A stretch of DNA of 34,080 nt from Rhodospirillaceae bacterium (GTDB lineage Bacteria > Pseudomonadota > Alphaproteobacteria > Rhodospirillales > Rhodospirillaceae). The DNA lies in contig JAIEMI010000322.1 in assembly GCA_019752235.1 (NCBI GenBank), positions 1-34,080 on the forward strand, in the 5' to 3' direction. Made by a program: the position numbers and the translations under genes. Below are positions 3,989-20,943 of the stretch, in pieces (the first letter of the stretch is position 1; each line of letters opens with the position of its first letter). The notes under the pieces were generated by a model. It did not search any database, had not been told where the DNA came from, and worked only from the letters and a program-made list of their open reading frames with translations.

Positions 3989-4002
3989 TTGATTGAAGTC
4001 AA
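3989..4002. promoter_or_regulatory. FNR/FixK-type box TTGATTGAAGTCAA
   Basis: The site matches TTGAT-N4-RTCAA exactly. Its centre is 66 bp upstream of the CBS-BON start at 3929, a suitable place for class II activation of the CBS-BON/glgB/glgX operon. Binding by an FNR/FixK protein is inferred from sequence only. Confidence 0.75.
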
Positions 4003-4203
4003 TGATTGCAGTCAATTTTGGAGCTGTGTTTATGGCGCGATTGACTACCGTACCCGATCGCGGAAGCTGTTTCGATCGGACCCGGACCAGCGCGCTTTAG
4101 AACAATATCTGTTATGCTTCCCAGAAACATCTCACGCGCCCAGATATGAGGATAAGCCCTCAACATAAGAACGATCCGCGGAACGTCTGAAGGTCCACCT
4201 TCC

Positions 4204-4551
4204 TCAGGCCTCGGGCAGGTCGTCGAATTCGGCGAGAAGCTCCTCGATCGAGCGGGCACATGAACCCACCCTGACGTCAATTCCTTCCGCGCGCATTCGG
4301 TCGCGTTCGGCCTCAGGGACAAACCCGCAAATCAGACGGGTCACTTTGGAGCGCAAAATCAGATCGCAAAAGCCGCACAGGCTGTGTTCAGTATTTGAAA
4401 GGAAGGTCGTCTCTCCGTCGGCAGCGTGAATCATGAGCAGCCCATCACACTTTCCAAAGAATGGGCACAGCACCGTGTCCATGCCGACGCGCATGACCGT
4501 AATGGCTGTAACTGGCGGCGCGGCCTTCGAATGAACCCGTGTCATAGTCAT
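4204..4551 (-). CDS. Cys-rich NifX/NifB-C-like (dinitrogenase FeMo-cofactor family) protein
   Basis: The protein has 115 aa. After about 19 residues it has the fold signature of the dinitrogenase iron-molybdenum cofactor family (PF02579-like): MRVGMDTVLCPFFGKCDGLL, where relatives have a strand followed by HFG; then SLCGFCDLI, TRLICGFV, and a C-terminal GIDVRVGSCARSIEELL. It carries six cysteines (29, 35, 59, 62, 75, 98), many for a small cytoplasmic protein, so it may bind Fe-S or another metal. No nif genes are nearby, so a nitrogenase role is not supported. The start is uncertain: neither the ATG at 4551 nor the ATG at 4494 has a good ribosome site, and family members normally begin near the latter. 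An FNR-like box lies about 47 bp upstream of 4551. I would treat it as a stress-linked small metal or redox protein. Confidence 0.72.
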   Translation of the reverse strand: MTMTRVHSKAAPPVTAITVMRVGMDTVLCPFFGKCDGLLMIHAADGETTFLSNTEHSLCGFCDLILRSKVTRLICGFVPEAERDRMRAEGIDVRVGSCARSIEELLAEFDDLPEA

Positions 4552-4597
4552 CTACAAAGATAGCGTAGCAAGGTGCGCCGATCGTCGCTCCAGAACC

Positions 4598-4611
4598 TTA
4601 AACTGGATCAA
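4598..4611. promoter_or_regulatory. Degenerate FNR/FixK-type box TTAAACTGGATCAA
   Basis: The right half-site ATCAA is perfect; the left half is TTAAA instead of TTGAT. The spacer is 4 nt. It lies 47 bp upstream of the NifX-like start at 4551. Its core CTGGATCAA is identical to the two perfect boxes at 7733 and 10304, which supports it. Confidence 0.55.
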
Positions 4612-4771
4612 ACATTTGCCGGAAAGTGTTGACGCCCGGAGTTTGCCCCCCCCAATCTCGCCCGGGCGATGAGGCAATTCTGGAGCGATCTAGTGGGTAC
4701 GTACGTAGTTATACAGATACCGGGTTGCGGAATGGGCTGCTACTGTTTGAGGCCATAAAATAAGCCTCCAT

Positions 4772-4785
4772 CGGAAATATTTCCG
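4772..4785. promoter_or_regulatory. Perfect 14-bp palindrome CGGAAATATTTCCG upstream of the Crp/Fnr gene
   Basis: This perfect inverted repeat lies 61-74 bp before the preferred start (4846) of the Crp/Fnr regulator and does not resemble TTGAT-N4-ATCAA. Its two-fold symmetry and position fit an operator, possibly an autoregulatory site. No protein can be assigned from sequence alone. Confidence 0.4.
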
Positions 4786-4845
4786 TCAGGTCGGATAAAG
4801 CCAAAGGGTGGGATCATGCCGGAGCCAAGAGTAGGAGAGCGCGAG

Positions 4846-5652
4846 ATGACCTCGGTTATATCCCTTGCAGCGCGGGCAAACGGAAAGACGCTCGGCACTC
4901 GTAACAGCCGCCCTGGAGCGAATCCGGTCCGGTGTCATACGTGTGCCGCGAAAATCAACGGCCTTTGCCAACACAGCACGCCCGGGACGATGGCCAGTAT
5001 GATCCAGTTCAGATCGGGCGAGCGGGCGATCGCGGCGGGTACCGATCTTTTCAGCATCGGCAAGCCCGCGAATGCGATCTTCACTCTCGTGAGCGGGTGG
5101 GCATTTCTTTATCAGTCTCTTAAAGACAGCCGGCGTCAAATCCTGCATTTCGCGCTTCCCGGCGCGGTCCTGGGCTTGCTTCCCGGCCAGGCCGCACGGG
5201 CGCCCTACGGCGCGCAGGCGCTGACGGACTGCGTTCTGTGCATTATCCCTCATGAGAATCTTAGTCCCCTGTCCAGGGAAGTGCCAGAGATCGGCATGCG
5301 ACTCTCCTGGCTGATATCCCACGATCTCCATCTGGCTTTCGATCATCTGACGAGCGTAGGCCGGCGTTCCGCCCGTGAACGCGTGACTCATCTGCTTCTC
5401 GAATTGTTTGTTCGCTATCGCGGCCAATGGCCAGGCAACCGCATCGACGAATTGTATTTGCCGTTGACCCAACAGCATGTCGGCGACGCTGTTGGCCTCA
5501 CCGCCGTTCATGTCAATCGTATCTTGCGGAAGTTGCGCGAGGACGGCGTGATCGAATTTAATTACCGGCATTTGCGCATCCTCGACCCCGACAAATTGAT
5601 CGATGTTTCCGGACTCGACCCGCAACTCGTCATATCGTGGGTCCGAAAATAA
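4846..5652 (+). CDS. Crp/Fnr-family regulator with FNR-type Fe-S cysteines
   Basis: This 268-aa transcription factor has an N-terminal Cys30-x2-Cys33-x7-Cys41 cluster (the FnrL/FnrN spacing), a cyclic-nucleotide-type effector domain (about 50-140), a dimer helix (about 145-185) and a winged helix (about 190-245). Cys132, in VLCIIPHENL, aligns with the fourth ligand of E. coli FNR (MVCEIP). All four 4Fe-4S ligands are therefore present and it probably senses oxygen. The recognition helix reads GLTAVHVNRIL, whereas FNR/FixK proteins have GLTxExxSR. The Glu and Ser that read the TTGAT site are replaced by Val and Asn, so its target may differ from the boxes in this window. I chose the ATG at 4846 because AGGAG lies 8 nt upstream; an in-frame ATG at 4816 with AGGGTGGG is an alternative (278 aa). 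It is a lone plus-strand gene with a palindrome upstream. Confidence 0.9.
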   Translation: MTSVISLAARANGKTLGTRNSRPGANPVRCHTCAAKINGLCQHSTPGTMASMIQFRSGERAIAAGTDLFSIGKPANAIFTLVSGWAFLYQSLKDSRRQILHFALPGAVLGLLPGQAARAPYGAQALTDCVLCIIPHENLSPLSREVPEIGMRLSWLISHDLHLAFDHLTSVGRRSARERVTHLLLELFVRYRGQWPGNRIDELYLPLTQQHVGDAVGLTAVHVNRILRKLREDGVIEFNYRHLRILDPDKLIDVSGLDPQLVISWVRK

Positions 5653-5781
5653 CCGAGCCCTGATATTTTCCAGCCTCAGGAAAAAAAGGAGTGCCACGCC
5701 GATTCACAAGTGGCCGGATATGCAAGACCGCACCGACTGTTCGAAACGGCGCGATCTAATCAGATCACGCGTCGGCCGCCG

Positions 5782-5898
5782 CTAGCGAGAGTTCCAATAT
5801 CCGAGCACAATTAGAGCAAGAAGCATCACGCAACAGGCGCCGACCCAGAGCCATATCCTTGGGTTGCCCTTCTTTTCATCAGCAGGTTCGTGTCGCAT
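5782..5898 (-). CDS. 38-aa single-pass membrane microprotein
   Basis: This short frame encodes a charged N-terminus (MRHEPADEKKGNPR), one hydrophobic segment of about 19 residues (WLWVGACCVMLLALIVLGYW), and a stop right after the basic NSR. It begins only 3 bp after the stop of the DUF2892 gene, so translation is probably coupled; there is no strong ribosome site of its own. It is the last gene of the minus-strand string of tiny membrane proteins. Function unknown. Support is the coupling, a clean transmembrane design and the context. Confidence 0.6.
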   Translation of the reverse strand: MRHEPADEKKGNPRIWLWVGACCVMLLALIVLGYWNSR

Positions 5899-5901
5899 GA
5901 G

Positions 5902-6138
5902 TCACACTTGCGTATTCGTGTTTCGTTGCGCCGTACTCCAGCCCAAGCGATTGTATATTGCGCAATAGCCGCGAGTTCCGGCAATCATCAATTCCGCGCT
6001 CAGCAGGAGGAGGGCAACATAGAGCAGCCGCCACATGAAGCCGGCGCCACCGAAGAACAACACCAGTGCCCAGACCGCTAGGGTACCGCCCAGTACGACA
6101 CGAAGAACGCGTTCGATCATGGCGAGATTCTTCTTCAT
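5902..6138 (-). CDS. DUF2892 / YgaP-like small inner-membrane protein
   Basis: This 78-aa protein starts MKKNLAMIERVLRVVLGG, has two hydrophobic helices (about residues 13-33 and 38-55), and ends with GYCAIYNRLGW. This is the layout of the YgaP C-terminal / DUF2892 family (MKKNxGxxDRxxRxxxG ... GxCPxY). The frame extends to a GTG at 6174, but the ATG at 6138 gives the family-typical start. Function is not established for the family; in YgaP the domain anchors a rhodanese. It lies 98 bp after the DUF5676 gene and 3 bp before the 38-aa microprotein. Its YCxIYN motif recurs in that DUF5676 neighbour. Confidence 0.82.
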   Translation of the reverse strand: MKKNLAMIERVLRVVLGGTLAVWALVLFFGGAGFMWRLLYVALLLLSAELMIAGTRGYCAIYNRLGWSTAQRNTNTQV

Positions 6139-6236
6139 ATCACGCGCATCACCGGCTGTCGCACTTAACGCCACCAGTCACAGATCGGCATAAAGGTTCC
6201 GCGTCTGCCCAGTTGTTCGGAGTGCATGCGGGAATT

Positions 6237-6515
6237 CTACGACGGTGGGCGGATCACCAAGTTCCCCCAGCGCCGATACAACCAGTTGTAGATCGGACAA
6301 TACACCAGACCGGCATAGGCACCGTAGAGGAAACTCTCGACAAGGCCGAGCAGAAAGCCCCACCAGGTGAGCCACCGGAATGCAGGCAGCACCATTTCCA
6401 GAAAATCGCTCATGTGTAGGCTTTGCGGCGTGACGAGACCATAAGTCACGCAAACCACGAAAGTGATAGCGAACCAAATTCCCAGCGCCCAGGTCACGAG
6501 TTTCGTGTTCAACAT
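6237..6515 (-). CDS. DUF5676-like membrane protein
   Basis: The 92-aa protein MLNTKLVTWALGIWFAITF... has a first helix near residues 8-29, an amphipathic stretch (VTPQSLHMSDFLEMVLPAF), a second helix near 50-72, and ends with YCPIYNWLYRRWG. This resembles the small DUF5676 membrane family. The start at 6515 is chosen because GGAGG lies 6 nt upstream; a GTG four codons earlier sits inside that site. It belongs to the run of small membrane genes read leftward from about 7640. Function is unknown; the shared YCxIYN tail with the adjacent DUF2892 protein suggests a related membrane role. Confidence 0.82.
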   Translation of the reverse strand: MLNTKLVTWALGIWFAITFVVCVTYGLVTPQSLHMSDFLEMVLPAFRWLTWWGFLLGLVESFLYGAYAGLVYCPIYNWLYRRWGNLVIRPPS

Positions 6516-6658
6516 CCCATCCTCCACTCAGTCTCACATTGAGACGAATTCGCTGTTATTAAAGGGATCTGTAAGGCGGGCATACTCCATTGGGCAACTA
6601 CACCCGCAGCGCATCCATTGTGGGTCGAGCTTGAATCGAATCGCCATGCGACCGATTG

Positions 6659-6835
6659 CTACGAGTGATGGTGGTGGCCTTTTTGCCTATCGCCTTCAGG
6701 TCGTTCCGAGGATTCGCGGTTGGACCTGTCGTTGTTTCCGCCGTGGCCCCCATGTCCTCCATGGCCGAACATGTGCAAGGCAACGAAGGCGAGGGCGATC
6801 AATACCCACACCCAGTTCGCCGCTAACCAGTCCAT
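6659..6835 (-). CDS. 58-aa W-N-W microprotein with Gly/His repeat tail (DUF2933-like)
   Basis: MDWLAANWVWVLIALAFVAL forms one membrane helix. It is followed by a Gly-His repeat (HMFGHGGHGGHGG), a polar stretch, and a terminal HHHHS. The repeated histidines could bind metal. The start is supported by AAAGGA 8 nt upstream. It resembles the DUF2933-type small proteins often found near metal-resistance genes, though I give that family name with caution. It shares the N-terminal pattern M-x-W-h-x-x-N-W with the next two genes and with a broken copy at 11715-11894. Function unknown. Confidence 0.75.
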   Translation of the reverse strand: MDWLAANWVWVLIALAFVALHMFGHGGHGGHGGNNDRSNRESSERPEGDRQKGHHHHS

Positions 6836-6919
6836 AACTCGATCCTTTCATTCTACAGCCAGACACAGCTCGTTCTTGAGTCACTCCACCGTACGCAGCG
6901 GTAGGGATACTGGCCTCTC

Positions 6920-7105
6920 TTATCTGTTCTTTTCGTGCCGCTCCGAAGGCCCGCCGCTGGAACGTACATGGTCTGTATCGTGACCACGACGCGCCCAGCG
7001 TCCGCCTTGGCCGAACATCAGAAAAGCGAAGAAGGCAATGCCGACCAATACCCAGAACCCCATTAGCCAGAGCCAATTCTCTGATATCCAATGCATGGGC
7101 TGCAT
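6920..7105 (-). CDS. 61-aa W-N-W membrane microprotein
   Basis: The protein begins MQPMHWISENWLWLMGFWVL, has a single hydrophobic helix (to about residue 31), then FGQGGRWARRGHDTDHV and a polar, basic tail. GGGAG lies 9 nt before the ATG at 7105; the ATG at 7096 would give the family-typical M-H-W start. It begins 3 bp after the stop of the preceding paralogue, so the two are likely coupled. The helix is rich in aromatic residues. Function unknown. The inactivated copy at 11715-11894 is most similar to this gene at its N-terminus. Confidence 0.75.
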   Translation of the reverse strand: MQPMHWISENWLWLMGFWVLVGIAFFAFLMFGQGGRWARRGHDTDHVRSSGGPSERHEKNR

Positions 7106-7108
7106 CTG

Positions 7109-7321
7109 TTATGTCTCCCGCGAGAAGTGTCGGTTGTCCGTGTGCCCTTCGCGCCGTTTCGGAGCCCCCGCGGCGGCGACTTTGTCATCGGCACCGTGAC
7201 CATGATCTGACCGGCCTCCCTCTTGGCCGGACATCTCCGAGGCCACGTAGGCAATGATGGCCAATGTGCAGATTGCCAATATACCGAGTATCAAGATCCA
7301 GTTCGCTATTACCCACTGCAT
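7109..7321 (-). CDS. 70-aa W-N-W membrane microprotein
   Basis: The protein begins MQWVIANWILILGILAICTL, with one membrane helix to about residue 26. It then has SEMSGQEGGRSDHGHGADDK and a charged tail. A ribosome-site-like AAGGATAGGG lies just upstream of the ATG. It is the first of three tandem paralogues; its stop lies 3 bp before the next start. It shares the layout M-x-W, N-W, helix, G-x-GG, then His/Asp tail, but the tail is not a simple Gly-His repeat. No function is known; the paralogues could form a heteromeric membrane assembly (inference). Confidence 0.75.
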   Translation of the reverse strand: MQWVIANWILILGILAICTLAIIAYVASEMSGQEGGRSDHGHGADDKVAAAGAPKRREGHTDNRHFSRET

Positions 7322-7388
7322 GGTCCCTATCCTTTTATCAGCTATGTCTCTTGCGCATGTCGCGGGGACGCAAACGCCAGTCCAGGAC

Positions 7389-7637
7389 TCAGGTCTTTTT
7401 TAGGAGGGCGATAGAGTCCGCGACTTCGGCCTGGCATACTTTTTCATTCTTCGTGAGCCGGGCTTGCCGCGCCTCGCCGAGAAGCTGCCAAGCCTTTGCG
7501 ATATCATCGGGCTGAGCCTTGGATAGCTTCAGCACCTGACGAGCCCGGCCGAGATCCTGATCGCAACTATCGGCGAAAGCAGGCGCAGCTCCGCCCGCCA
7601 GCAATATTGCTGAAACCAGAAAGATTATCTTACGCAT
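7389..7637 (-). CDS. 82-aa exported protein with two cysteines
   Basis: A classical signal peptide (MRKIIFLVSAILLAGGAAPAFA, cleavage near residue 22) precedes about 60 helical, charged residues with two cysteines (DSCDQDLG and EKVCQAEV) that could form a disulfide in the periplasm. GAGGAAAG lies about 8 nt before the ATG; a TTG one codon upstream is less likely. It is the first gene after the perfect FNR box at 7733-7746, about 96 bp upstream, and leads the run of small membrane genes. I do not recognise the family. Confidence 0.75.
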   Translation of the reverse strand: MRKIIFLVSAILLAGGAAPAFADSCDQDLGRARQVLKLSKAQPDDIAKAWQLLGEARQARLTKNEKVCQAEVADSIALLKKT

Positions 7638-7732
7638 CAATGCTTTCCTCTACTTATAGATTACGCGACGACCACAACCGCACGGCCACTCCTCACCGCT
7701 ATAATTAATCCGCCGTTTTCATTGTTTTCTCC

Positions 7733-7746
7733 TTGATCTGGATCAA
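7733..7746. promoter_or_regulatory. Perfect FNR/FixK-type box TTGATCTGGATCAA
   Basis: This is an exact TTGAT-N4-ATCAA palindrome. Its centre is 102 bp upstream of the exported 82-aa gene (start 7637), and it probably drives the leftward string of small envelope genes. The identical 14-mer recurs at 10304. Confidence 0.82.
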
Positions 7747-7770
7747 TGATTCCGCCGGGGCAGAATCATT
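7745..7770. terminator. Possible hairpin AATGATTC / GAATCATT
   Basis: Perfect 8-bp arms (7745-7752 and 7763-7770) enclose a 10-nt GC-rich loop, 83 bp downstream of the Met-rich gene (ends 7853, minus strand) and touching the FNR box. It may end that transcript. There is no clear T-run, so confidence is low. Confidence 0.35.
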
Positions 7771-7852
7771 GGCTCTATTTCAAGGCAATGGGCGAGCTCG
7801 CATCATATTTCAGTGCGCGTTAGTCATGATGACTGTCGTTTTGGGTCGTATG

Positions 7853-8185: not shown

Positions 8186-8424
8186 CGGCATCTCCTTCTC
8201 GATAGATCTCTTGGCGTCGTGGCGTAGGATTTAGGTGGTGGCAACGCGTCCCCTCTGGTGACCAGCGCGATCATGGGACGGTTCAGGCGTGCTCGGGCGT
8301 TGCTGATATTTGCCCCCGGCTTCCTTCGCGTGCCCCTTGCCCAACCTGAATTTCATCGTGGTTGAGGGTTGCATCCTTGAAGCGTCATCAGCCTGCGCGC
8401 CTAACCACAGGACCCCGCAACGCC

Positions 8425-9291
8425 TTAGTGAGCCAGGAGCACCGGCAAGAGGCTAGACCTAAGTACCTGCCGGGTGGCTCCTCCGAACAAGAATTCGCGC
8501 CAGGGCATGTGACCATAGCCGCCCATGACGAGGAGATCGGCACCCTCGTCGCGCGCAGCCGAGAGAATCTGCTCCCCTGGCCCGACGCCCATGGCCGATT
8601 CTACATGACGATGTGTTGCGGTGTGGCCATGCCATGCCAAGTACTCCAGCAGGGACGTGCCGCTGACCTCATGCCTGTCGCCGACGGTGATGACACAAAT
8701 CTTACGCGCCTTCGCCAAGAGAGGCAGAGCACCGACCACAGACCTGACCGAGGCGGACGAGCCATTCCAAGCAATTGCAATCGTTTCGCCGATCGCAGTG
8801 GGTGGTTTGGCGGGCGCCAGAAGGACGGGGCGACCACAGCTGAAGAGCGTTTGCTCATCGGTATCGGAATGAATCCGGTCGACGATACGCTCGGAAGCGC
8901 CGAGCACCACGAGATCGAAAAATCGCGCGCGGCGCGAAACCAGGCTGGGCGGCTTTCCAGTCTCCTCCCGCCAGGCCGCGGAAGCCGACGCGGATGCCGT
9001 GGCCGGGACCGACGCCAGCGAAACCGCATGTCGACTGGCCGCCGCGCTGAAGGCTGCTTGCGCTTTCTTGGCGGTTGCGGCGGCTTCCGCATCGAATTGA
9101 TCGAGCATTCTCTGATCCATCGCCATGGAGATGTCGCTTGCGGCAGCGACCAGGATCTGAGTGGAGTCAAGCTTCACATGAAACCCTTCGAGATGAGCTT
9201 GGAAGTGCTTGGCAAGCATACAGGCGAGTTCCAGCGCGCCGCCACTGGCGGCACCGCCACTCATCGCCACCAAAATCGTCCTATAACGCAT
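8425..9291 (-). CDS. Tandem-domain universal stress protein (UspA family)
   Basis: This 288-aa cytoplasmic protein has two Usp domains (about 1-145 and 155-288). The first begins YRTILVAMSGG. The second has TIAIAWNGS and ends with a nucleotide-binding-like loop GGYGHMPWREFLFGGATR, close to the G-x2-G-x9-G pattern of ATP-binding Usp proteins. The first domain's corresponding loop (VVLGASERIVDRIHSD) is degenerate. GGGAG lies shortly before the ATG. An FNR-like box lies 93 bp upstream. Related tandem Usp proteins are induced by oxygen limitation under ANR/FNR control in several proteobacteria, which fits here. Confidence 0.92.
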   Translation of the reverse strand: MRYRTILVAMSGGAASGGALELACMLAKHFQAHLEGFHVKLDSTQILVAAASDISMAMDQRMLDQFDAEAAATAKKAQAAFSAAASRHAVSLASVPATASASASAAWREETGKPPSLVSRRARFFDLVVLGASERIVDRIHSDTDEQTLFSCGRPVLLAPAKPPTAIGETIAIAWNGSSASVRSVVGALPLLAKARKICVITVGDRHEVSGTSLLEYLAWHGHTATHRHVESAMGVGPGEQILSAARDEGADLLVMGGYGHMPWREFLFGGATRQVLRSSLLPVLLAH

Positions 9292-9383
9292 GATCTATCT
9301 CCCTTTATCTCCGACCGATGGTAGCGACGCAGCTCACGACCGCTTCGGGGTGAAAGGGTAGAACGTTGGACGCCGCTCCAACA

Positions 9384-9738: not shown

Positions 9739-9743
9739 CGGAA

Positions 9744-10303: not shown

Positions 10304-10317
10304 TTGATCTGGATCAA
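10304..10317. promoter_or_regulatory. Perfect FNR/FixK-type box TTGATCTGGATCAA
   Basis: This is an exact palindrome identical to the box at 7733. It lies about 160 bp upstream of the HtrA GTG start at 10477, farther than the other boxes from their genes, which implies a longer leader. Confidence 0.78.
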
Positions 10318-10476: not shown

Positions 10477-11607
10477 GTGTCGAAGATCGGAGTTGTCGCT
10501 GTAGTCCTGGCAATCGCAGCCGCGGGAGTATTGGGTTGGGTGGCGCACCCGTTCGCGCCGCCTTCCGGCCTACCCCAGCCGTCTGCAATCGCAAGCATCT
10601 CAAAGGCGGCTTCGGCCGAAGCGCGCGGGCTGCCGACATTGGCCCCGATGTTGCGCAAGGCGATGCCGGCGGTTGTCAGCATCACAGTTCAGGGCCGGGG
10701 CCGCGCCGAGGATAATCCGCTGTTCCAGGATCCGTTCTATCGGCGCTATTTCGAAGACAATGCGCCGGCCGAGCGCGACGTGCTGAGCGCTGGTTCCGGC
10801 GTCGTAATCGATGCGGAGCGCGGATTCGTGATCACCAACGATCATGTGGTCCGCAATGCGGAGCGGATCGGTGCAGCATTTGCCGACGGCCGACGCGTTG
10901 AAGCGAAGCTTGTCGGCACCGATCCCGCCACCGATATAGCGCTCCTCAGTGTTCCCGCGCAAGCGCTGGCGGCGCTTCCACTCGGCAATTCAGATGATCT
11001 CGAGATCGGTGATTACGTCGTCGCCATCGGCAATCCATTCGGACTCGACCAGACGGCTACCTCCGGCATCGTTAGCGCTCTCGGCCGCACCGGACTCGGC
11101 ATCGAAGGATACGAGGATTTCATTCAGACCGATGCAGCCGTCAATCCCGGCAATTCGGGAGGGGCACTCGTCGATATCGAGGGGCGTTTTGTCGGAATCA
11201 ATGCCGCGATTGTCGGCCCAGCCGGCGGCAATGTCGGCATTGGCTTCGCGATCCCGATCAACATGGTGCGGGAGGTGTCCGACCAGCTCGCCCGCTACGG
11301 CCAGGTGGTGCGCGGCCAGCTCGGCGTCGTTATTCAGGACCACCGCGCCGCCATGCCGGCCGCAACGCACCCGGAGAGCTTGCCCGGGGCGATGGTAACC
11401 GACGTCGCGGCTGGGTCCGCCGCCGAACAGGCAGGTATCAACCGGGGTGATGTGATCGTCGCGGTCAATGGCAAACCGGTCATCAGCGCGGCTAAATTGC
11501 GCACCCGGGTCGGTCTTGTCCGCGCTGGCGAGACCGTCGAGATCGAAGTTCTGCGTGACAGCAATCGCATCAAGGTAAACGCTCGTGTGGCGACTATGGA
11601 GCCGTGA
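10477..11607 (+). CDS. HtrA/DegP-like periplasmic serine protease with one PDZ domain
   Basis: This 376-aa envelope protease has an N-terminal membrane anchor or signal (GVVAVVLAIAAAGVLGWVA, about residues 5-23). The trypsin-like domain carries the triad His123 (ITNDHVV), Asp153 (TDPATDIALL) and Ser227 (NPGNSGGAL). A single PDZ domain follows (about 278-372, GQLGVVIQD ... GINRGDVIVAVNGKPV). One PDZ makes it DegS-like or short-HtrA-like, not full DegP, which has two. The GTG at 10477 is preferred because GGAGGT lies 6 nt upstream; the frame extends to a TTG at 10414 with no such site. A perfect FNR box lies upstream. It probably degrades or senses misfolded envelope proteins under low-oxygen stress. 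Confidence 0.92.
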   Translation: MSKIGVVAVVLAIAAAGVLGWVAHPFAPPSGLPQPSAIASISKAASAEARGLPTLAPMLRKAMPAVVSITVQGRGRAEDNPLFQDPFYRRYFEDNAPAERDVLSAGSGVVIDAERGFVITNDHVVRNAERIGAAFADGRRVEAKLVGTDPATDIALLSVPAQALAALPLGNSDDLEIGDYVVAIGNPFGLDQTATSGIVSALGRTGLGIEGYEDFIQTDAAVNPGNSGGALVDIEGRFVGINAAIVGPAGGNVGIGFAIPINMVREVSDQLARYGQVVRGQLGVVIQDHRAAMPAATHPESLPGAMVTDVAAGSAAEQAGINRGDVIVAVNGKPVISAAKLRTRVGLVRAGETVEIEVLRDSNRIKVNARVATMEP

Positions 11608-12349: not shown

Positions 12350-12904
12350 ATGACTTCGCACAACGCGGTTATTGCCGTCTTTGCCCATCACCACACAGCA
12401 GAGGATGCCGTGAGGACATTGGCGGGCGCCGGATTTGATATCACCAAGGTCAATATCGTCGGCAAAGGCTGTCATAAAGAAGAGAAGGTCGTCGGCTTTT
12501 ACAATGCCGGCGACCGTATGAAGTTCTGGGGAAAATACGGCGCCTTCTGGGGCAGCCTATGGGGTTTGTTCGCCGGCGGCCTGTTCCTCGTCGTTCCCGG
12601 TCTAGGACCGCTTATGGTGCTTGGCCATTTTGGCGCGATGGTCCTGGGAGCCGTCGAAGGTGCCGTTTTGGGTGGGGGGCTAGGCGCACTTGGCGCCGCT
12701 CTTGTCAGCATGGGAATTCCTAAGAACAGCGTGATCAACTATGAGGCAGCTGTCAAAGCGGACGGCTTTTTAGTGATGGTCGATGGTTCGCCTCGGGAGG
12801 TGGAGCGCGCCAAGACGATCCTCGAGGCCGCAAAGCCGTCGCGCCTGGACGTTCATGAAAAGGTGCGCGCGCCGGCCGAACATGCTGGACATCATGCGGC
12901 GTGA
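12350..12904 (+). CDS. DUF1269-like membrane stress protein
   Basis: This 184-aa protein has an N-terminal alpha/beta part (AVIAVFAHHHTAEDAVRTLA, then FDITKVNIVGKG) typical of general-stress / low-temperature-induced relatives. A Gly-rich hydrophobic centre (about residues 62-122: GAFWGSLWGLFAGG, GAMVLGAVEGAVLGGGLGAL) looks like a glycine-zipper membrane segment. A second alpha/beta part (SVINYEAAVKADGFLVMVDG) and a His-rich tail (EHAGHHAA) follow. AGGAAAGG lies about 8 nt before the ATG. The function of this family is unknown. It is divergent from the 77-aa membrane gene with an FNR-like box between them. Confidence 0.85.
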   Translation: MTSHNAVIAVFAHHHTAEDAVRTLAGAGFDITKVNIVGKGCHKEEKVVGFYNAGDRMKFWGKYGAFWGSLWGLFAGGLFLVVPGLGPLMVLGHFGAMVLGAVEGAVLGGGLGALGAALVSMGIPKNSVINYEAAVKADGFLVMVDGSPREVERAKTILEAAKPSRLDVHEKVRAPAEHAGHHAA

Positions 12905-13100: not shown

Positions 13101-15518
13101 ATGACCAAGGAACATTATGTAGCGTGGTTCGAAGACCTCCGCCGCGGCGACGTCGCTAAGGTGGGTGGAAAGAATGCGTCACTTGGCGAAATGGTACGCA
13201 CCCTCAAGACGAAGGGCGTGCGCGTACCTGACGGTTTCGCAACCACGGCCGCGGCCTTTCGGGAATTTGTATCGGCCAACAAATTAGAAGAACGGCTCCG
13301 CCAACAGGTGGCTGCGTTCAAAGGCGGCCAAATTCCGCTGCACGACGTGGGAACGGCAATACGCCGCCTCTTCCTGGATGGAACATTTCCACCGGAAATC
13401 GCAAATCAGATCCGCGATGCTTATACGGAGTTGTCAAAACGAAGCGATCAAGCCGAAGTCAGCGTCGCCGTACGTAGCAGCGCGACCGCCGAGGACCTGC
13501 CGGAAGCCAGTTTCGCCGGACAGCAGGAGACTTTTCTGAATGTGCGTGGCGAACGCGAGCTGCTCGATGCCTGTCGGCGGTGTTATGCCTCCTTGTTCAC
13601 CGACCGTGCAATCAGCTACCGCGAGACCAAAGGCTTCGACCATATGGAGGTCGCATTGTCGATCGGTGTGCAACGCATGGTGCGGTCGGATCTGGCGAGC
13701 TCGGGGGTGATGTTTTCGATTGATACCGAGACTGGCTTTCCCAGGGTAGCCGTCATCAACGCAGCTTGGGGATTGGGCGAAACCGTCGTCCAGGGAGCCG
13801 TAAACCCGGACAAATACGTGGTTTTCAAGCCACTGCTCGGGAAGAAGGGACTGATCCCGATCATCGAGAAAGCGCTTGGCGCAAAAGAGCGAAAAATGAT
13901 CTACGCGACCGGGGGAAGCGCCCGAACGACCACCATTGATACGACGCAGAAGGAGCGGCAGGCGTTCGTTCTCAGCGACGACGAGATTCTTGAACTCGGA
14001 CGCTGGGCGGCGATCATTGAGGCTCATTACGGCCGTCCAATGGATATGGAATGGGCGAAAGACGGCGAAACGAGCGCACTCTATATGGTTCAAGCGCGCC
14101 CAGAAACGGTCCAATCCGCGCGACAAGTCGGCCAAATCAAGACCTACCGCCTCTTGCAAAAGGCGCAACCGATCATGACAGGCGCGGCCATTGGCGAGGC
14201 GATTTCCGCAGGCCAAGCATGTGTGATCCGCAGCGCTGACGATATCGGCAGTTTCCGTGATGGCGCCATTCTCGTGACGGAAATTACCGATCCTGACTGG
14301 GTTCCGATCATGAAACGGGCCGCCGGTATCATTACGGATCACGGCGGCACGACCAGTCATGCCGCCATCGTCAGCCGTGAGCTGGGCGTCCCCGCGATCG
14401 TGGGCACCGGGCACGCAACCGATCTTCTGCACGATGGCCAGGACGTCACCATGTCATGCGCGGAAGGAGACCAGGGCGCCGTCTATGACGGAATCCTTCC
14501 CTTCGAGGCGACGGAGGTCGATCTTACAGGCCTGCCGGAGACGCGGACAGCAATGATGGTCAATGTCGCCAATCCGGCCGCCGCCTTCCGCTGGTGGCCC
14601 CTTCCCGCGAAAGGTGTTGGCCTCGCGCGCATGGAATTCATCGTCAGCAATGCCATCAAAGTCCACCCCATGGCGTTGATCTATCCCGAACGGATCGAGA
14701 ACCGCGAGGAACAGCGCCAAATTCGTGAATTGACGCGAGGCTACAAAAATCCAGCGGATTACTTTGTCGACCGGCTCGCGCTCGGCATAGCGAAGCTCGC
14801 CGCCCCCTATCATCCGCACCCGGTGATCGTTCGCCTCAGCGATTTCAAGACGAATGAATACGCACACTTGCTTGGCGGGGCGGCCTTCGAGCCGCATGAG
14901 GAGAATCCGATGCTGGGATGGCGTGGGGCCTCGCGCTATTACGATGAGCGCTATCGCGAAGGCTTCGCCCTCGAATGCCGTGCCCTCCTCAAGGTACGGA
15001 ACGAGATCGGTTTTGCCAATGTGATCGTCATGGTGCCCTTTTGCCGCACGCCTGACGAAGCGGACCGGGTACTGGAGGTTATGGCCGCGAATGGCCTCAA
15101 GCGCGGTGCCGATGGCCTTCAGGTGTACATGATGTGCGAGATCCCATCGAATGTAATCCTGGCGGAGGATTTCGCACGCCGTTTTGATGGTTTCTCCATA
15201 GGGTCGAACGACCTCACCCAGCTCGTGCTCGGTGTCGATCGGGATTCTGGTGACCTGGCTCCGCTCTTCGACGAGCGCAACGCGGCGGTCAAGTCCATGG
15301 TCCGAGACGCGATCAAAAAAACCCATGCCGCAGGGATAAAGATAGGAATTTGCGGCCAAGCGCCCAGCAATTACCCGGAATTCGCGGCTTTTCTTGTCGA
15401 ACAGGGGATTGATTCGATATCGCTGAACCCTGATAGCTTTGTCGCAACCGTTCGTCATGTCGCCGAAGTCGAACGGCAGTATGCAGCCGCTCCAGTCCGC
15501 ACCGCGGGCCGTACATGA
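13101..15518 (+). CDS. ppsA: Phosphoenolpyruvate synthase (pyruvate, water dikinase)
   Basis: PpsA converts pyruvate, ATP and water to PEP, AMP and phosphate. The 805-aa protein has the N-terminal ATP-grasp part (GGKNASLGEMV; AVRSSATAEDLPEASFAGQQ), the central phosphohistidine domain (GGTTSHAAIVSRELGVPAIVGTG, catalytic His near 420; E. coli uses His421), and the C-terminal PEP/pyruvate barrel with GFSIGSNDLTQLVLGVDRD and GICGQAPSN, whose Cys is the expected acid. Length and motifs match the family throughout. GAGGGAT precedes the ATG. The stop overlaps the start of the dehydrogenase gene (ATGA), and an FNR-like box lies about 100 bp upstream. In this setting it may work with lactate dehydrogenase at the pyruvate node when oxygen is limiting. 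Confidence 0.96.
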   Translation: MTKEHYVAWFEDLRRGDVAKVGGKNASLGEMVRTLKTKGVRVPDGFATTAAAFREFVSANKLEERLRQQVAAFKGGQIPLHDVGTAIRRLFLDGTFPPEIANQIRDAYTELSKRSDQAEVSVAVRSSATAEDLPEASFAGQQETFLNVRGERELLDACRRCYASLFTDRAISYRETKGFDHMEVALSIGVQRMVRSDLASSGVMFSIDTETGFPRVAVINAAWGLGETVVQGAVNPDKYVVFKPLLGKKGLIPIIEKALGAKERKMIYATGGSARTTTIDTTQKERQAFVLSDDEILELGRWAAIIEAHYGRPMDMEWAKDGETSALYMVQARPETVQSARQVGQIKTYRLLQKAQPIMTGAAIGEAISAGQACVIRSADDIGSFRDGAILVTEITDPDWVPIMKRAAGIITDHGGTTSHAAIVSRELGVPAIVGTGHATDLLHDGQDVTMSCAEGDQGAVYDGILPFEATEVDLTGLPETRTAMMVNVANPAAAFRWWPLPAKGVGLARMEFIVSNAIKVHPMALIYPERIENREEQRQIRELTRGYKNPADYFVDRLALGIAKLAAPYHPHPVIVRLSDFKTNEYAHLLGGAAFEPHEENPMLGWRGASRYYDERYREGFALECRALLKVRNEIGFANVIVMVPFCRTPDEADRVLEVMAANGLKRGADGLQVYMMCEIPSNVILAEDFARRFDGFSIGSNDLTQLVLGVDRDSGDLAPLFDERNAAVKSMVRDAIKKTHAAGIKIGICGQAPSNYPEFAAFLVEQGIDSISLNPDSFVATVRHVAEVERQYAAAPVRTAGRT

Positions 15519-16519
15519 AAATCGCGGTCTTTGAAACCGAAGAATGGGAGCATGCGGCTTGCCTAAGCCTGCAGCCCGAACATGCGATCAGCTGCACGCG
15601 TGACGCCCTTAACAAGGCGACAGTACAAGCATATGCGGACGCGGAAATCGTCAGCCCCTTCGTCAATTCAAAGCTTGGCGCCGATGTCCTTGCTCAACTT
15701 CCGCGCCTGAAGTTCATCGCGACGCGATCGACCGGCTACGACCACATTGATCTCGCCTACTGCGCGGCGCACGGCATCGCGGTGTCGAATGTCCCCGACT
15801 ATGGTGACGCGACCGTGGCCGAACACACATTTGCGCTCCTCCTGGCGGTCGCGCGCAATCTGGTGGATGCTGTGGAGCACACGCGGCGTGGCAACTTTTC
15901 GCAGTCGGGTCTTCGCGGGATTGAACTGCATGGCAAAGTTCTCGGCGTGATCGGCACAGGCCGTATCGGGCGGCGAGTCATCGCGATCGCAAATGGCTTC
16001 GGAATGAAAGTCCTGGCCTTCGATACGAATCCGGACTTCACGCACGCCCTAGAGATGGGCGTTGAGCATATGGACCTCGGAAACGTTCTTGCGAGGTCCG
16101 ATATCGTTACTCTGCACGTCCCCTCGACCCCGGCAACGGCCGGGCTGATCTCTGACGCGCAATTCGCGGTCATGAAACGGGGCGCGATCATGATCAATAC
16201 GGCGCGAGGCAATGTCATTGACACCGCAGCTCTTGTGCGCGCTTTGGCCGACGGGAAAATTCGTGGCGCAGGTCTTGACGTCCTGCCCCAGGAACCGCTC
16301 ATCCGGGAAGAAGCGGAGATTTTTCGAGGGCCCGCGAGCACGGAGTACGATCTCAAGGCTCTCGTAGCCAACCATGTATTGCTACGGTTCCCCAACGTCA
16401 TCGTGACGCCGCACATCGCCTACAATACGGAAGACGCCGTCAGGCGTATCATAGAGACGACGTTGGGCAATATACGCGCATTTGGGCGCGGACAACCGCA
16501 AAATACCGTATCGCGCTAA
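15515..16519 (+). CDS. D-isomer-specific 2-hydroxyacid dehydrogenase (D-lactate dehydrogenase-like)
   Basis: This 334-aa cytoplasmic NAD-dependent enzyme has the Rossmann motif VIGTGRIGRR (about 145-154) and the catalytic set Arg231 (NTARG), Glu260 (DVLPQEPL) and His300 (TPHIAYNT). The substrate-domain motif ATRSTGYDHIDL (about 69-80) matches fermentative D-lactate dehydrogenases (LdhA/VanH-like) better than phosphoglycerate dehydrogenase. It would reduce pyruvate to D-lactate and reoxidise NADH. Its start overlaps the ppsA stop by 4 bp, so the two are translationally coupled. This places two competing fates of pyruvate under one promoter. Substrate preference is inferred. Confidence 0.9.
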   Translation: MKIAVFETEEWEHAACLSLQPEHAISCTRDALNKATVQAYADAEIVSPFVNSKLGADVLAQLPRLKFIATRSTGYDHIDLAYCAAHGIAVSNVPDYGDATVAEHTFALLLAVARNLVDAVEHTRRGNFSQSGLRGIELHGKVLGVIGTGRIGRRVIAIANGFGMKVLAFDTNPDFTHALEMGVEHMDLGNVLARSDIVTLHVPSTPATAGLISDAQFAVMKRGAIMINTARGNVIDTAALVRALADGKIRGAGLDVLPQEPLIREEAEIFRGPASTEYDLKALVANHVLLRFPNVIVTPHIAYNTEDAVRRIIETTLGNIRAFGRGQPQNTVSR

Positions 16520-16586
16520 GCGTCCGGCATGACGTCAAGGCGTCCGAGGGGTCCGGGGTTAAGCCGGTGACAGGTGGGACCAGCCA

Positions 16587-17834
16587 ATGCTTGTCGTCAT
16601 TGAAGAGTTGATCTCGCCGTCGGGCGACCTTCTGAATTTTGAAGTCGTCGAACGGAAGGGATTGGGTCATCCCGATACCATCTGCGACGCGTTGGCCGAG
16701 GCTTTGAGCCTCGCGATCTCGCGCCGTTCACTGATGTTGTTTGGACGCATCCTTCACCATAATGTCGACAAGGCCTTGCTCTGGGGTGGTACCGCCCGAC
16801 CAGCCTTCGGCGGAGGAGAGATTTCCAAGCCGATCGAGATATTCCTTGCCGGCAGGGCGCTGACCTCGTTCGGAGACAAGAGTATACCGGTTGATGAATT
16901 GGCACAGGAAATCACGCGCGCGTGGTTTGCCAACAATATCCCAAGTCTCGATCTGGGGCGCGACATCAAGACTCACAGCCTCGTAAGGCAAGGTTCGGCG
17001 GACCTGGTTGCGCTTTTTGAGCGCTCTGCCGCAACGGCGGTTCTTGCGAACGACACCTCGTGCGGCGTGGGCTTCGCGCCGCTGAGCACGTTGGAATCCG
17101 TTGTCCTTAAAGTTGAGATGGGTTTGACTGATCCCGGCCTGCGCAATCTGCATCCAGAAATTGGCGCCGACATAAAAGTCATGGGCGTGCGCAATGGACG
17201 CCACATTCGCCTGGTGATTGGATGTGCATTCATCGGGCGCCATATCAACGATCTTGCAGATTATGCTGGAAAGAAAGCAGGAGTAGCAGATCTTGTGCGC
17301 TCGCTTTGCCGATCGGCCGGCGCTCCAGGTGTGGACGTGATGGTGAACGCCGCCGATGATATCGAACGCGGGAGCGTCTATCTCACGGTCTCGGGAACCT
17401 CCGCCGAGGCAGGAGATGATGGGCAAGCTGGACGTGGCAACCGCGTCAATGGCCTGATAACGCCATTCCGCCCCATGACCATGGAATCCGTTGCCGGCAA
17501 GAACCCGGTCACCCATGTCGGAAAATTATATAATATCGTTGCGACGCTCATTACGCAGAGAATCGTTGAGGCCATTCCACAGGTTGCTGAGGCGCAATGC
17601 ATCCTGGTCAGCAAGATTGGCCATAGGATCGACGAGCCGCAGCTCCTCGATCTTCGCCTTCGCCCGGCAACGAGCAGCCTAAGCCAACGGGATAAAACAA
17701 GAGCGGAAGAGATTGCTCGCGACGAACTCTCGCGTATCGGCACCGTAGCTGACGCTCTCCTGAGCGATACGATACGTTTGGACCGGTGGCCCCTCTCCAA
17801 CAGGCGCACGGATCAACTCTTAAAGACCACCTGA
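16587..17834 (+). CDS. Archaeal-type methionine adenosyltransferase
   Basis: This 415-aa enzyme of the archaeal AdoMet synthetase family (PF01941-like) makes S-adenosylmethionine from methionine and ATP. It is distinct from the usual bacterial MetK. Diagnostic motifs are ERKGLGHPD (22-30), HHNVDKALLWGG (57-68), FGGG (74-77), ANDTSCGVGFAPLS (154-167), DIKVMG (195-200), GTSAEAGDDGQAGRGNR (270-286) and GKNPVTHVGKLYN (304-316). Archaeal enzymes have HHNTDQ; here it is HHNVDK. A weak AGGTGGG precedes the ATG. It follows the dehydrogenase by 67 bp with no separate box visible, so it is probably the third gene of the ppsA unit. A housekeeping metK elsewhere in the genome is likely but not visible here. 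Confidence 0.92.
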   Translation: MLVVIEELISPSGDLLNFEVVERKGLGHPDTICDALAEALSLAISRRSLMLFGRILHHNVDKALLWGGTARPAFGGGEISKPIEIFLAGRALTSFGDKSIPVDELAQEITRAWFANNIPSLDLGRDIKTHSLVRQGSADLVALFERSAATAVLANDTSCGVGFAPLSTLESVVLKVEMGLTDPGLRNLHPEIGADIKVMGVRNGRHIRLVIGCAFIGRHINDLADYAGKKAGVADLVRSLCRSAGAPGVDVMVNAADDIERGSVYLTVSGTSAEAGDDGQAGRGNRVNGLITPFRPMTMESVAGKNPVTHVGKLYNIVATLITQRIVEAIPQVAEAQCILVSKIGHRIDEPQLLDLRLRPATSSLSQRDKTRAEEIARDELSRIGTVADALLSDTIRLDRWPLSNRRTDQLLKTT

Positions 17835-18133
17835 CTTGTGAGTGCTATTCGCTACGTTATGTCGCTCCTGGAAGATGGTGATCGACGCTGAATTCGAGTC
17901 CGACTGACTCTGCGATCCCCCGCCCGCCGAACCGAGCGGACAGAGCAAAGAACTCAATGGCGAGCAAACGTCGGCGCCCGCAGATCCTCGTGCGCACCGA
18001 TCCTGGTATCAGCTCACGGCGAGCGAGGCCCGCGCGCCATCACAGCGATCATCTCAGCCCATTTCAAGGATTTGTGATTTAGCATCAAAGAGCGCAGGCA
18101 AGAATCTGCGCAGCGCGGCGCGCCTGAAATAGA
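17835..18133. other. Convergent intergenic region without a recognisable gene
   Basis: These 299 bp separate the plus-strand adenosyltransferase from the minus-strand ATPase. I see no supported coding frame. A plus-strand ATG frame at 17957 would give about 41 basic residues with no ribosome site. No clear hairpin with a T-run is evident. Confidence 0.45.
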
Positions 18134-20869
18134 TTACGAGCGAGCTTTCCTGTACGACGAACTCATCGCGGGAGTCGTGCCACCTGAAAGTTCCAGCCAC
18201 AGCTGCCCTCCAATGAGCGGCAGCAGGCTGCACCCAATCGCCAGAGCCCAGCCTTCGAGCTCGATCGGCGCGATCTGCAGCGCCGTCGCCAGTACTGGCA
18301 TATGGACCGCTGCGAGGATCAGGCCGAGAGACAGCGCAAGCGCGTACCAGACGAGGGGATTCTCGGTGACGGCGTTCCGCCAAAAGCCGCTTCGGCGGCT
18401 GCGCATGTTGAAAACGTGCCAGAGCTGGGCAAGCGCGATGGTGAGGAAGGAGACTGTCGTCGCTTGTTCGGCGGTGAGCGCGAGCCACTCGGTGGAGACC
18501 ACCAGCGCAAAGAGCGTACTCGCCGAAATCGCCGCCCCGTAGAGTGCTACGGCGCGCCACTGCCCAACCGAAAGGATCGGTTCTTTCGGCGGCCGGGGCG
18601 GACGGGCAAGCACGTCGCCTTCGCCATGGCCGGTGGCCAGCGCGAAGGCGGGGAAGACATCGGTCACCAGATTGAGGAAGAGTATCTGCAACGGCAGCAG
18701 CGGCAGCGGCAGGCCGGCGAAGACGGCGAGGCCGACCACCAGCACCTCGGCGAGGTTCGAGGACAGCAGATAGGTCGAGAAGCGGCGGATGTTGTTGAAG
18801 ATGATCCGGCCCTCGCGCACCGCATGCACGATCGTTGAGAAGGCGTCGTCGAGCAGCACCATGTCGGCCGCCTCGCGCGCAACCTCGGTGCCGCGCTGAC
18901 CCATGGCGATGCCGATATCGGCCTTGGTCAGCGCCGGCGCGTCGTTGACCCCGTCGCCGATCATGGCGACCACCGCGCCCTCGTGCTGAAAGAGGTCGAT
19001 CAAGTCGAGCTTCTGCTCGGGGCTCACGCGCGCGAAGACATGTTTTTGCGCGATTTCCTGGCGCTTCGCTTCGGCAGCCTCTTTAAGGTGCGGCAGCTCC
19101 GTCCCCGTCATCACCGTTGCGCCCGGCTCCGTCATGCCGACAGCGCGCGAAATACTGAGCGCCGTGCTCGGATGATCACCGGTCGCCATCACCACACGAA
19201 TGCCAGCCTGCCGCAGCGCGGCGACGGCGTCGGCAATGTCGTGCCGCGGCGGATCGCGGAAAGCGACAAGGCCGAGGAAGACGAGCCCATCAGCGACTGG
19301 CTGATCGGGCTCCGCCTCCGGGTAAATGGCGACCGCGATCACGCGCAGGCCCTCTGCCGCAAGCCGCTCGGCACGCTCCAGCCAGGCTGCGCGGGCTGTT
19401 TCATCGAGCGATGCCACCTCTATACCGATCCGGTCGGCCGCAGCCAGCACCTCCTCGGGCGCGCCCTTGACAGCGGCGAAATGCCCATCGCCCTGGTGGT
19501 GTACCGTCGCCATCCGCTTGGTCGCCGTGTCGAAGGGATGCTCCGCCACCTCTGGAAAAGCCTCAACCTGCTCGCCGCGATCGAGCCCTGCGAAGCCGCC
19601 GGCGCGCAGAAGCGCCACCTCCATCGGATCGCCGGTGCCGGAACGGGCATGATGGTCATACTCGGCGTTCGAGCAGAGCACGCCGACCAGAAGCGCCCGC
19701 ATCAGCCCCGGATCTGTGGCGGGGTCGACCGGGGTCCCGCCCTTGAGAATCGTGGCGTGCAAGTGGTCGATGGTAAAATCGCCGGAGGGAGTGAGGATAC
19801 GCTCCACCGCCATGCGGTTCTCGGTGAGCGTGCCGGTCTTGTCGGTGATGATGAGCGTGGTGGAGCCGAGCGTTTCCACGGCAGAAAGGTTTTCGACCAG
19901 TGCATTGCGCCGCGCCATACGCAGCATGCCACGGGCGAGCGCCAACGTGTCGACGATCGGCAGGCCTTCCGGGATGGCCGCGACGGCAAGCGCGATTGCC
20001 GTCTCCACCATGAGAAAGGCCGGCTTGCCGGAGTAAAGCCCGACCGCCGTGATGACGACGGCGAGCGCCAGGGTGATCCAGACGAGTTGGCGCGACAGCA
20101 GCGCAAGCTGCTTCTCCAGCGGCGAGTCTCCGCCTTCCGCCTCTTCCACGAGTTGGGTAATCCGGCCGAGTTCGGTTGTGAGCCCAGTGCCGGTGACGAT
20201 GCCCTCGCCGCTGCCACGCACCACGTGCGTGCCCTTGAACAGCATGGCGCTGCGCTCGTGCAGTCCGGCTCTTTCCGGATTTGGGTCAAGTCCTTTCTCC
20301 ACCGGCAGCGATTCGCCGGTGAGCGCCGACTCATCGACACTTAAGGCGGCGCTGCTTGCGCACCGCATGTCGGCCGTGACGACGTCGCCTGCTTCGACGA
20401 GCACCACATCGCCGGGCACCAATAGATCGGCTGAAATCTGCCGCGACTGGCCGTCCCGGCGCACACGCGCGCTGCGCGCCCCGAGTCGCCGCAGCGCCTC
20501 CATGGAACGCACCGCCCGCCGCTCGGTATAGTAGCCGATAGCCGTATTGATCGCGAGGACAACGGCGATCGCTGCGGCCTGCTGATACTCGCCGAAGGCC
20601 AGTGACAGCACCATCGCGGTAGCCAGCAGCGCCACGACCGAGCTGGCAAACTGCCGCAAGATCAGCGTCGTATCGGATACGGGTTTGCGCGTTGTGAGGC
20701 GGTTTGGCCCGAACTGCTTAAGCCGCCGCTCTGCCTCCTCCTGCGTGAGCCCGGCGGCGGGGTCGATGCCCAACGCAGCGGCGACACGTGCGACCGACAG
20801 CGTATGCGGATGGCGCGGTACAACCTCGGGCCGGTTCGCTTTCTGTGCGGTCTCCACTGTGGCTCTCAT
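18134..20869 (-). CDS. P2-type cation-transporting ATPase
   Basis: This 911-aa P-type ATPase starts with the cation-ATPase N-terminal domain (about 20-90). The actuator motif is TGES (184-187), M4 carries IPEGLP (299-304), the phosphorylation site is DKTGTLTEN (Asp343), the N-domain has KGAPEEV, and the hinge is MIGDGVNDAPALTKADIGIAMG. M6 carries NLVTDVFPAFAL, and there are about ten membrane helices. PEGLP and the M6 pattern are those of the Ca2+/Na+,K+/H+ (P2) group; the exact ion cannot be read, since M6 departs from the SERCA-like NxxTDxxPA. An FNR-like box lies 61 bp upstream. The region looks more GC-rich than its neighbours by eye and carries long antisense open frames. It may maintain ion balance when respiration stops. 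Confidence 0.93.
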   Translation of the reverse strand: MRATVETAQKANRPEVVPRHPHTLSVARVAAALGIDPAAGLTQEEAERRLKQFGPNRLTTRKPVSDTTLILRQFASSVVALLATAMVLSLAFGEYQQAAAIAVVLAINTAIGYYTERRAVRSMEALRRLGARSARVRRDGQSRQISADLLVPGDVVLVEAGDVVTADMRCASSAALSVDESALTGESLPVEKGLDPNPERAGLHERSAMLFKGTHVVRGSGEGIVTGTGLTTELGRITQLVEEAEGGDSPLEKQLALLSRQLVWITLALAVVITAVGLYSGKPAFLMVETAIALAVAAIPEGLPIVDTLALARGMLRMARRNALVENLSAVETLGSTTLIITDKTGTLTENRMAVERILTPSGDFTIDHLHATILKGGTPVDPATDPGLMRALLVGVLCSNAEYDHHARSGTGDPMEVALLRAGGFAGLDRGEQVEAFPEVAEHPFDTATKRMATVHHQGDGHFAAVKGAPEEVLAAADRIGIEVASLDETARAAWLERAERLAAEGLRVIAVAIYPEAEPDQPVADGLVFLGLVAFRDPPRHDIADAVAALRQAGIRVVMATGDHPSTALSISRAVGMTEPGATVMTGTELPHLKEAAEAKRQEIAQKHVFARVSPEQKLDLIDLFQHEGAVVAMIGDGVNDAPALTKADIGIAMGQRGTEVAREAADMVLLDDAFSTIVHAVREGRIIFNNIRRFSTYLLSSNLAEVLVVGLAVFAGLPLPLLPLQILFLNLVTDVFPAFALATGHGEGDVLARPPRPPKEPILSVGQWRAVALYGAAISASTLFALVVSTEWLALTAEQATTVSFLTIALAQLWHVFNMRSRRSGFWRNAVTENPLVWYALALSLGLILAAVHMPVLATALQIAPIELEGWALAIGCSLLPLIGGQLWLELSGGTTPAMSSSYRKARS

Positions 20870-20929
20870 ATGCGACCTGTTTCGGGAACCATGGTAGGCA
20901 AACCATACGACGAACGCGCAGACGTTTTG

Positions 20930-20943
20930 TTGACCTGCCTCAA
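20930..20943. promoter_or_regulatory. Degenerate FNR/FixK-type box TTGACCTGCCTCAA
   Basis: The site reads TTGAC-CTGC-CTCAA: a good TTGA/TCAA frame with two off-consensus inner bases. Its centre is 67 bp upstream of the ATPase start at 20869, the same spacing as the box before the CBS-BON gene. Confidence 0.55.

Follow-up and report, generated by a model that had tools for sequence, protein, structure and literature searches.

The 34,080-bp stretch of Rhodospirillaceae bacterium DNA analysed here (the window, which is the whole of contig C8 in an assembly of 3.82 Mb, 346 contigs and 79.5% completeness) carries nine FNR/FixK-like 14-mers, hereafter boxes. Judging from sequence, they are probably sites of a FixK (FNR-type) activator under FixL–FixJ–FixK low-oxygen control, a reading to which we assign a probability of about 0.82. 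All nine boxes of the original prediction are found, at positions 3989, 4598, 7733, 9384, 10007, 10304, 12236, 12994, and 20930 (Table 1), and those at 7733 and 10304 are, as claimed, one and the same perfect palindrome with a full match to TTGATN4ATCAA. A second box at 4002–4015 overlaps box 3989 by one base, in tandem. Distances were taken from the box centre to the start codon, with starts from a home-made gene caller. The claim that the centre lies 50–110 bp upstream of a start, and farther for the HtrA-like gene, stands provided that the starts of boxes 4598 and 10007, which the caller missed and which were read by eye (4551 and 9926), and the ATG at 9291 of the universal stress protein (Usp) gene are right.

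The boxes are concentrated in intergenic DNA. Matches were ranked by an FNR/FixK box score (maximum 18), whose weights were hand-set to the general consensus once the finding was known. At a score of at least 15, the threshold used for densities in the window, there are 10 matches in 5.0 kb of intergenic DNA and one (at 32631) in 29.1 kb of coding DNA, so box-like 14-mers are not as frequent in coding DNA as in promoters. The ten intergenic matches are the nine predicted boxes and the overlapping one at 4002. The binomial probability for 10 of 11 matches being intergenic, 5e-8, is somewhat flattering, because boxes 3989 and 4002 overlap. When the threshold is lowered to 14, the coding matches rise to 22 and the intergenic ones stay at 10, indicating that the signal is confined to the strong boxes. 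As background we used ten 20-kb stretches from the longest contigs of the same genome, selected without regard to boxes. They hold 8 matches in 37.3 kb of intergenic DNA and 28 in 162.7 kb of coding DNA (0.215 versus 0.172 per kb), nearly equal densities, indicating that intergenic DNA per se is not box-rich. The intergenic DNA of the window is about 9-fold richer than that of the background (Fisher test, 1e-5). Genome-wide, there are 15 perfect sites and none of the reversed pattern, and TTGAYN4RTCAA with at most one mismatch occurs 411 times versus 103 for the control pattern.

Boxes are also dense on contigs C1 (positions 1–18,000, with nine TTGAYN4RTCAA sites), C60, C105, and C143. Their neighbours there, assigned by eye with the identity checked for the C1 CBS gene and the C105 Fix genes only, include Usp, hemerythrin-like, CBS, P-type ATPase, and oxidase genes. 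The 28 intergenic matches scoring at least 17 in 23.9 kb of such contigs are a biased density, because the contigs were picked for holding boxes.

For part of the boxes, the position relative to the putative promoters is consistent with activation. With a box centred at -41.5, as in class II promoters, the -10 element falls 29 bp past the box centre (+29). Among the 24 box–gene pairs of this genome that lie outside the window (within 130 bp), 12 have a TA dinucleotide at +29, as against 3.4% on average and at most 3/24 at other offsets (binomial, 4e-12). This offset came out best among 72 in an earlier, overlapping set and also equals the class II expectation; a box lying between divergent genes contributes two pairs. 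Within the window, TA stands at +29 in three of ten pairs (3989, 12994, and 20930) and is off by one in another (9384). Among named relatives, TAnnnT is found at +29 for 3 of the 24 boxes ahead of CBS genes, versus 0.6% at other offsets. In addition, a G lies two bases past the box in 9/10 window pairs, 16/24 pairs elsewhere in the genome, and 14/24 pairs in named relatives. For the window boxes, this agrees with the box consensus TTGANCNNGATCAANG given in an excerpt of PMC4999443.

The box upstream of the CBS-BON gene is conserved. CBS-BON homologues occur in 10 of 61 genomes, this one included, and all ten homologues in the nine related genomes (one of the ten split into two rows) have a box scoring at least 15.5, the threshold for homologue and plasmid loci, the nearest lying 67–145 bp upstream. 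The relative at locus L059 likewise has two boxes ahead of its CBS-BON gene. Of the two paralogues in the present genome, that on C29 is preceded by a perfect box 163 bp away, and the one on C1 comes after a boxed gene resembling Usp. Among CBS homologues in named records, 18 of 29 have a box within 250 bp; the control counts are 3 of 130 for genes of the present genome and 2 of 46 for genes at other loci in the relatives. In the named loci as a whole, 106 of 368 called genes are boxed, CBS genes included, indicating that CBS neighbourhoods are box-rich too. PpsA has matches in two of 60 other genomes, and one of these ppsA genes is preceded by a box 98 bp away, where TA stands at +29.

A candidate reader of the boxes is encoded on contig C105. 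The genome has three HTH_Crp_2 proteins above the Pfam cut-off and four weaker matches below it. One of the three, a FixK-like protein (C105:6508-7203), has the recognition helix VIETVSR (E--SR) and no FNR cysteine motif, and its closest solved structure is FixK2 (4i2o, E 1e-39). Neither of the other two has an E--SR helix: the C29 protein reads LHTVSR, and the third is encoded in the window itself. The available part of PMC2908626 ties E and R at these helix positions to the common FNR/FixK/DNR site. Therefore, FixK is the most likely reader. Next to the FixK gene, the same contig encodes a FixJ above the NCBIfam cut-off (255.7 versus 255) and, adjoining it, a kinase with FixL as its best model. 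FixK homologues are present in 10 of 25 genomes, this one included; at eight of 14 FixK loci the protein fits the helix pattern, always as ETVSR, the pattern leaving the other six unresolved. In relatives G012 (C82) and G015 (C25), a FixK homologue and the CBS-BON gene share a contig; G012 also has a closer FixK homologue, on a different contig from the CBS-BON gene.

The third protein, a Crp/Fnr protein that the original prediction did not mention and that qualifies its reading, is encoded in the midst of the box cluster (4846–5652). As an oxygen-labile iron–sulphur (Fe-S), FNR-like sensor it might itself be the main reader, acting locally. Its four cluster cysteines, three of them in a C-x2-C-x7-C motif, align with those of the FNR-type regulator 9qlt. 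However, its recognition helix, GLTAVHVNR, departs from the GLTVETISR of FNR, with V in place of E209 and N in place of S212, R213 being kept, and it scores 102 against the NCBIfam FnrL model (cut-off 300). A first contig scan with this protein as query returned no relative; homologues at E <= 1e-20 occur in 6 of 40 other genomes, and the one at L047 in relative G021, which keeps both the cysteines and this helix, lies in a 3.7-kb locus with no box scoring at least 15.5. We consider it improbable that this protein is the main reader. A palindrome ahead of its gene, CGGAAATATTTCCG (4772–4785), was considered as its own site and rejected: genome-wide, CGGAAN4TTCCG has fewer copies than the reversed control (10 versus 22), a second exact copy (on C97) is intragenic, and the palindrome is absent upstream in the other eight homologue loci.

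Alternatively, the boxes could be read by a true FNR (FnrN/FnrL) or DNR, with direct Fe-S oxygen or nitric oxide sensing as the input, whose gene is missing from the incomplete assembly. Predicted FNR, FixK, and DNR sites are virtually identical according to the accessible portion of PMC2908626, and cysteine-bearing E--SR proteins occur in relatives G021 and G024. Against this, neither protein is seen among the seven HTH_Crp_2 matches above, of which the three above the cut-off include E--SR in FixK only. An FNR or DNR reader is unlikely, and FixK remains the preferred one.

Several observations weigh against control by FixK. The C105 FixK does not reach the NCBIfam FixK equivalog cut-off (176.5 versus 300), although this is its best model, and the FixL likewise falls short of its curated cut-off (597 versus 850). 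Relative G004 (79% complete) has a boxed CBS-BON gene and no FixK match. Because the present genome is 79.5% complete, an unseen FNR could read the boxes. Eleven of the 29 CBS homologues in named records have no box within 250 bp, nor has one of the two ppsA homologues of the relatives. In the window, boxes 4598 and 12236 score weakly (Table 1), and six of the ten box–gene pairs have TA at neither +29 nor +30. With up to two mismatches, the window holds 18 matches versus 11.3 +/- 3.3 in shuffles, and 18 is reached in 5 of 100 shuffles. This raw count, which only marginally exceeds the shuffles, is what chance palindromes surviving in intergenic DNA could give. The strength of the box signal comes from position, not from the raw count in the window: background intergenic DNA of the same genome has almost no excess of matches over coding DNA, boxes recur upstream of CBS homologues, and the distance to the -10 element is preferred. 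Chance is largely contradicted by the box densities, the -10 geometry, and the CBS conservation, and we regard it as hardly credible.

Under control by FixK, a drop in oxygen would lead FixL to phosphorylate FixJ, and FixJ would turn on fixK. FixK dimers would occupy the TTGAY-N4-RTCAA boxes, centred near -41.5, and bring RNA polymerase to a -10 element that lies 29 bp from that centre, as in class II activation. Up to ten transcription units of the window may be switched on in this way: CBS-BON with the glycogen genes, the open reading frame (ORF) at 4551, the small-protein run, Usp, the 60-aa ORF at 9926, HtrA, the 77-aa protein, YflT, ppsA with the 2-hydroxyacid dehydrogenase and methionine adenosyltransferase, and the cation ATPase. 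The proposal of a low-oxygen co-regulated set is thereby supported by intergenic placement, the preferred -10 position for part of the boxes, the flanking G, conservation of boxes upstream of homologues, and the FixL/FixJ/FixK-like genes. From these features we infer binding, activation, the oxygen signal, the operon limits, and FixK, rather than another regulator, as the reader.

Table 1 Boxes and genes in the window. The strand listed for a box is that of its target gene; distances run from box centre to start codon.
Feature	Position	Strand	Remarks
Box TTGATTGAAGTCAA	3989..4002	-	66 bp to CBS-BON start; TAACTT at +29
Box TTAAACTGGATCAA, weak	4598..4611	-	score 15.0; ~53 bp to small ORF, ATG 4551 (by eye)
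Box TTGATCTGGATCAA, perfect	7733..7746	-	102 bp to small-protein run 7637 -> 5902
Box TTGACTTGGATCAA	9384..9397	-	126 bp to Usp gene, 99 if ATG 9291 is used; TACCCT at +30
Box TTGAGCTAAATCAA	10007..10020	-	~87 bp to 60-aa ORF, ATG 9926 (by eye)
Box TTGATCTGGATCAA, perfect	10304..10317	+	166 bp to HtrA-like gene
Box TTAACCAGGATCAA	12236..12249	.	score 15.8; divergent genes, 100 bp to 12142 (-) and 107 bp to 12350 (+)
Box TTGACCGGCATCAA	12994..13007	+	100 bp to ppsA; TATTTT at +29
Box TTGACCTGCCTCAA	20930..20943	-	67 bp to P-type ATPase gene; TATGGT at +29
Glycogen branching enzyme-like, GlgB	1270..3273	-	CBM48, alpha-amylase
CBS-BON protein	3240..3929	-	Pfam CBS 1.7e-33, BON 3e-12
Crp/Fnr protein	4846..5652	+	FNR-type cysteines, V--NR recognition helix
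Small-protein run	5902..7637	-	five called (YgaP-like transmembrane (TM), DUF5676, DUF2933, others) and one more ORF
Universal stress protein	8425..9291	-	Pfam Usp 6.6e-10
HtrA-like trypsin-PDZ protease	10477..11607	+	
YflT-domain stress protein	12350..12904	+	
ppsA, D-2-hydroxyacid dehydrogenase, archaeal-type methionine adenosyltransferase	13101..17834	+	probable operon
PpsA	13101..15518	+	
Archaeal-type methionine adenosyltransferase	16587..17834	+	PF01941
P-type cation ATPase	18134..20869	-	below cut-off for its best NCBIfam models (PMR1- and SERCA-type Ca)

The unit behind box 3989 would comprise, by ORF overlap, CBS-BON, GlgB, and another CBM48/amylase-type enzyme; the GlgB ORF (3273–1270) overlaps the end of the CBS-BON gene, and the glycogen genes are therefore probably in one operon with it. 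Box 12236 is flanked by the genes of a 77-aa protein (start 12142, minus strand) and of YflT (12350, plus strand). The YgaP-like TM, DUF5676, and DUF2933 proteins behind the perfect box 7733 are short membrane proteins (5902–7321, minus strand). The idea that DUF2933 genes are generally boxed found no support: the family occurs in 14 of 148 genomes (this one included), and none of the 16 loci from other genomes among the 18 scanned (two from this genome, and three with less than 300 bp of upstream sequence) has a box scoring at least 15.5 within 300 bp upstream. At the other end of the window, a nearly gapless run on the minus strand (22591–34060) includes FtsH, phosphoribosyl pyrophosphate synthase, thymidine-phosphorylase-like, and beta-CASP genes. 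Its promoter would lie past the contig end, so the lack of boxes there is uninformative on its control. Close to the FixLJ genes, C105:1-2565 also holds genes that by eye resemble this run.

PpsA shares 80% identity with its counterpart on a conjugative Indioceanicola plasmid (NZ_CP030129.1), compared with 55% for the match in a genome of the same family (G019) and 52% for a partial match of the same genus. The excess of the plasmid copy over the same-family genome makes horizontal transfer of ppsA probable. We read four plasmid regions, out of 135 records with a PpsA match; 156 plasmid records have a CBS homologue, one of the four regions being among them, and the methionine adenosyltransferase is on 27 plasmid records, for example of Methylocystis. 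At a score of at least 15.5, the four regions have 0, 1, 2, and 0 intergenic and 4, 1, 3, and 1 coding boxes, few enough between genes that plasmid-borne copies of the module with the same boxes are mostly unsupported. The sole intergenic box of the Phenylobacterium zucineum plasmid region (L143:25757-25770) is perfect and lies 64 bp ahead of a sigma-factor gene, with fixJ about 4 kb away from that gene; control there might be relayed through the sigma factor. In the Methylocystis region, a box scoring 17 lies 375 bp upstream of ppsA, and another scores 15.8. The Indioceanicola region also holds a DUF5676 gene.

No intergenic match to a general-stress EcfG-type motif (GGAAC-N15-18-CGTT) occurs in the window, in the ten background or five box-rich stretches, or in the four plasmid regions. 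The archaeal-type methionine adenosyltransferase is found in this genome alone among 198 searched, and a decayed second piece of it lies at C60:8904-9080, about 0.4 kb from a box. Among the literature matches listed, titles and opening lines of abstracts contain nothing on a plasmid-borne FixK island or on an archaeal-type methionine adenosyltransferase at low oxygen.

These comparisons allow a tentative proposal, which we regard as rather doubtful: that a portable module for low-oxygen survival (ppsA, 2-hydroxyacid dehydrogenase, CBS, glycogen genes, FtsH, and partners), mostly unboxed where other Alphaproteobacteria have it on plasmids, has come under FixK control here one unit at a time, with a second oxygen input through the local Fe-S FNR-like protein of altered DNA specificity. 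A claim of rewiring is not warranted, because four plasmid regions are too few; the plasmid comparison may be an instance of one gene set wired in different ways. For this uncultured lineage, the control by FixK proposed above adds a predicted low-oxygen survival programme, and it links the small proteins of the window (DUF2933, DUF5676, YflT, and unnamed ORFs) to that programme, making their role testable.

Parts of such a programme are known from other bacteria. In Bradyrhizobium diazoefficiens, Usp, host-attachment, CBS-domain, phosphoenolpyruvate (PEP) synthase, and phosphofructokinase proteins (bll4644, bll4645, blr4646, blr4655, and blr4659) are raised at 0.5% O2, none of them marked as a FixK2 target in Table 2 of PMC6515984; other Usp (blr2761 and bll6069) and CBS (blr6074) proteins are so marked. 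The response thus shares Usp, CBS, and PEP synthase with the window, but the CBS gene and ppsA of the window are each boxed, whereas the CBS and PEP synthase of the first five lack the FixK2 mark. The word HtrA is absent from the text of that paper, in which the remaining window genes were not sought. The excerpted PMC2908626 lists, as predicted members of alphaproteobacterial FNR/FixK/DNR regulons, a CBS-domain protein and Hsp20, which depend on FixK in B. japonicum, and Usp as a core member for FNR that also belongs to known FixK regulons. The box is the same as in the window; that work treats families conserved over 87 species, and the excerpt describes no dense cluster of the window's make-up. 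Membership of CBS and Usp proteins in FixK/FNR regulons is already on record, as is the rise of PEP synthase, unmarked as a FixK2 target, at low oxygen. By gene content only, the window also resembles the lxa locus of Burkholderia cenocepacia, a 50-gene block raised at low oxygen that includes a BON-domain protein, as described in PMC6127331 and PMC9733578. Both have Usp and BON proteins, but lxa is betaproteobacterial and has six Usp genes, whereas the window has one.

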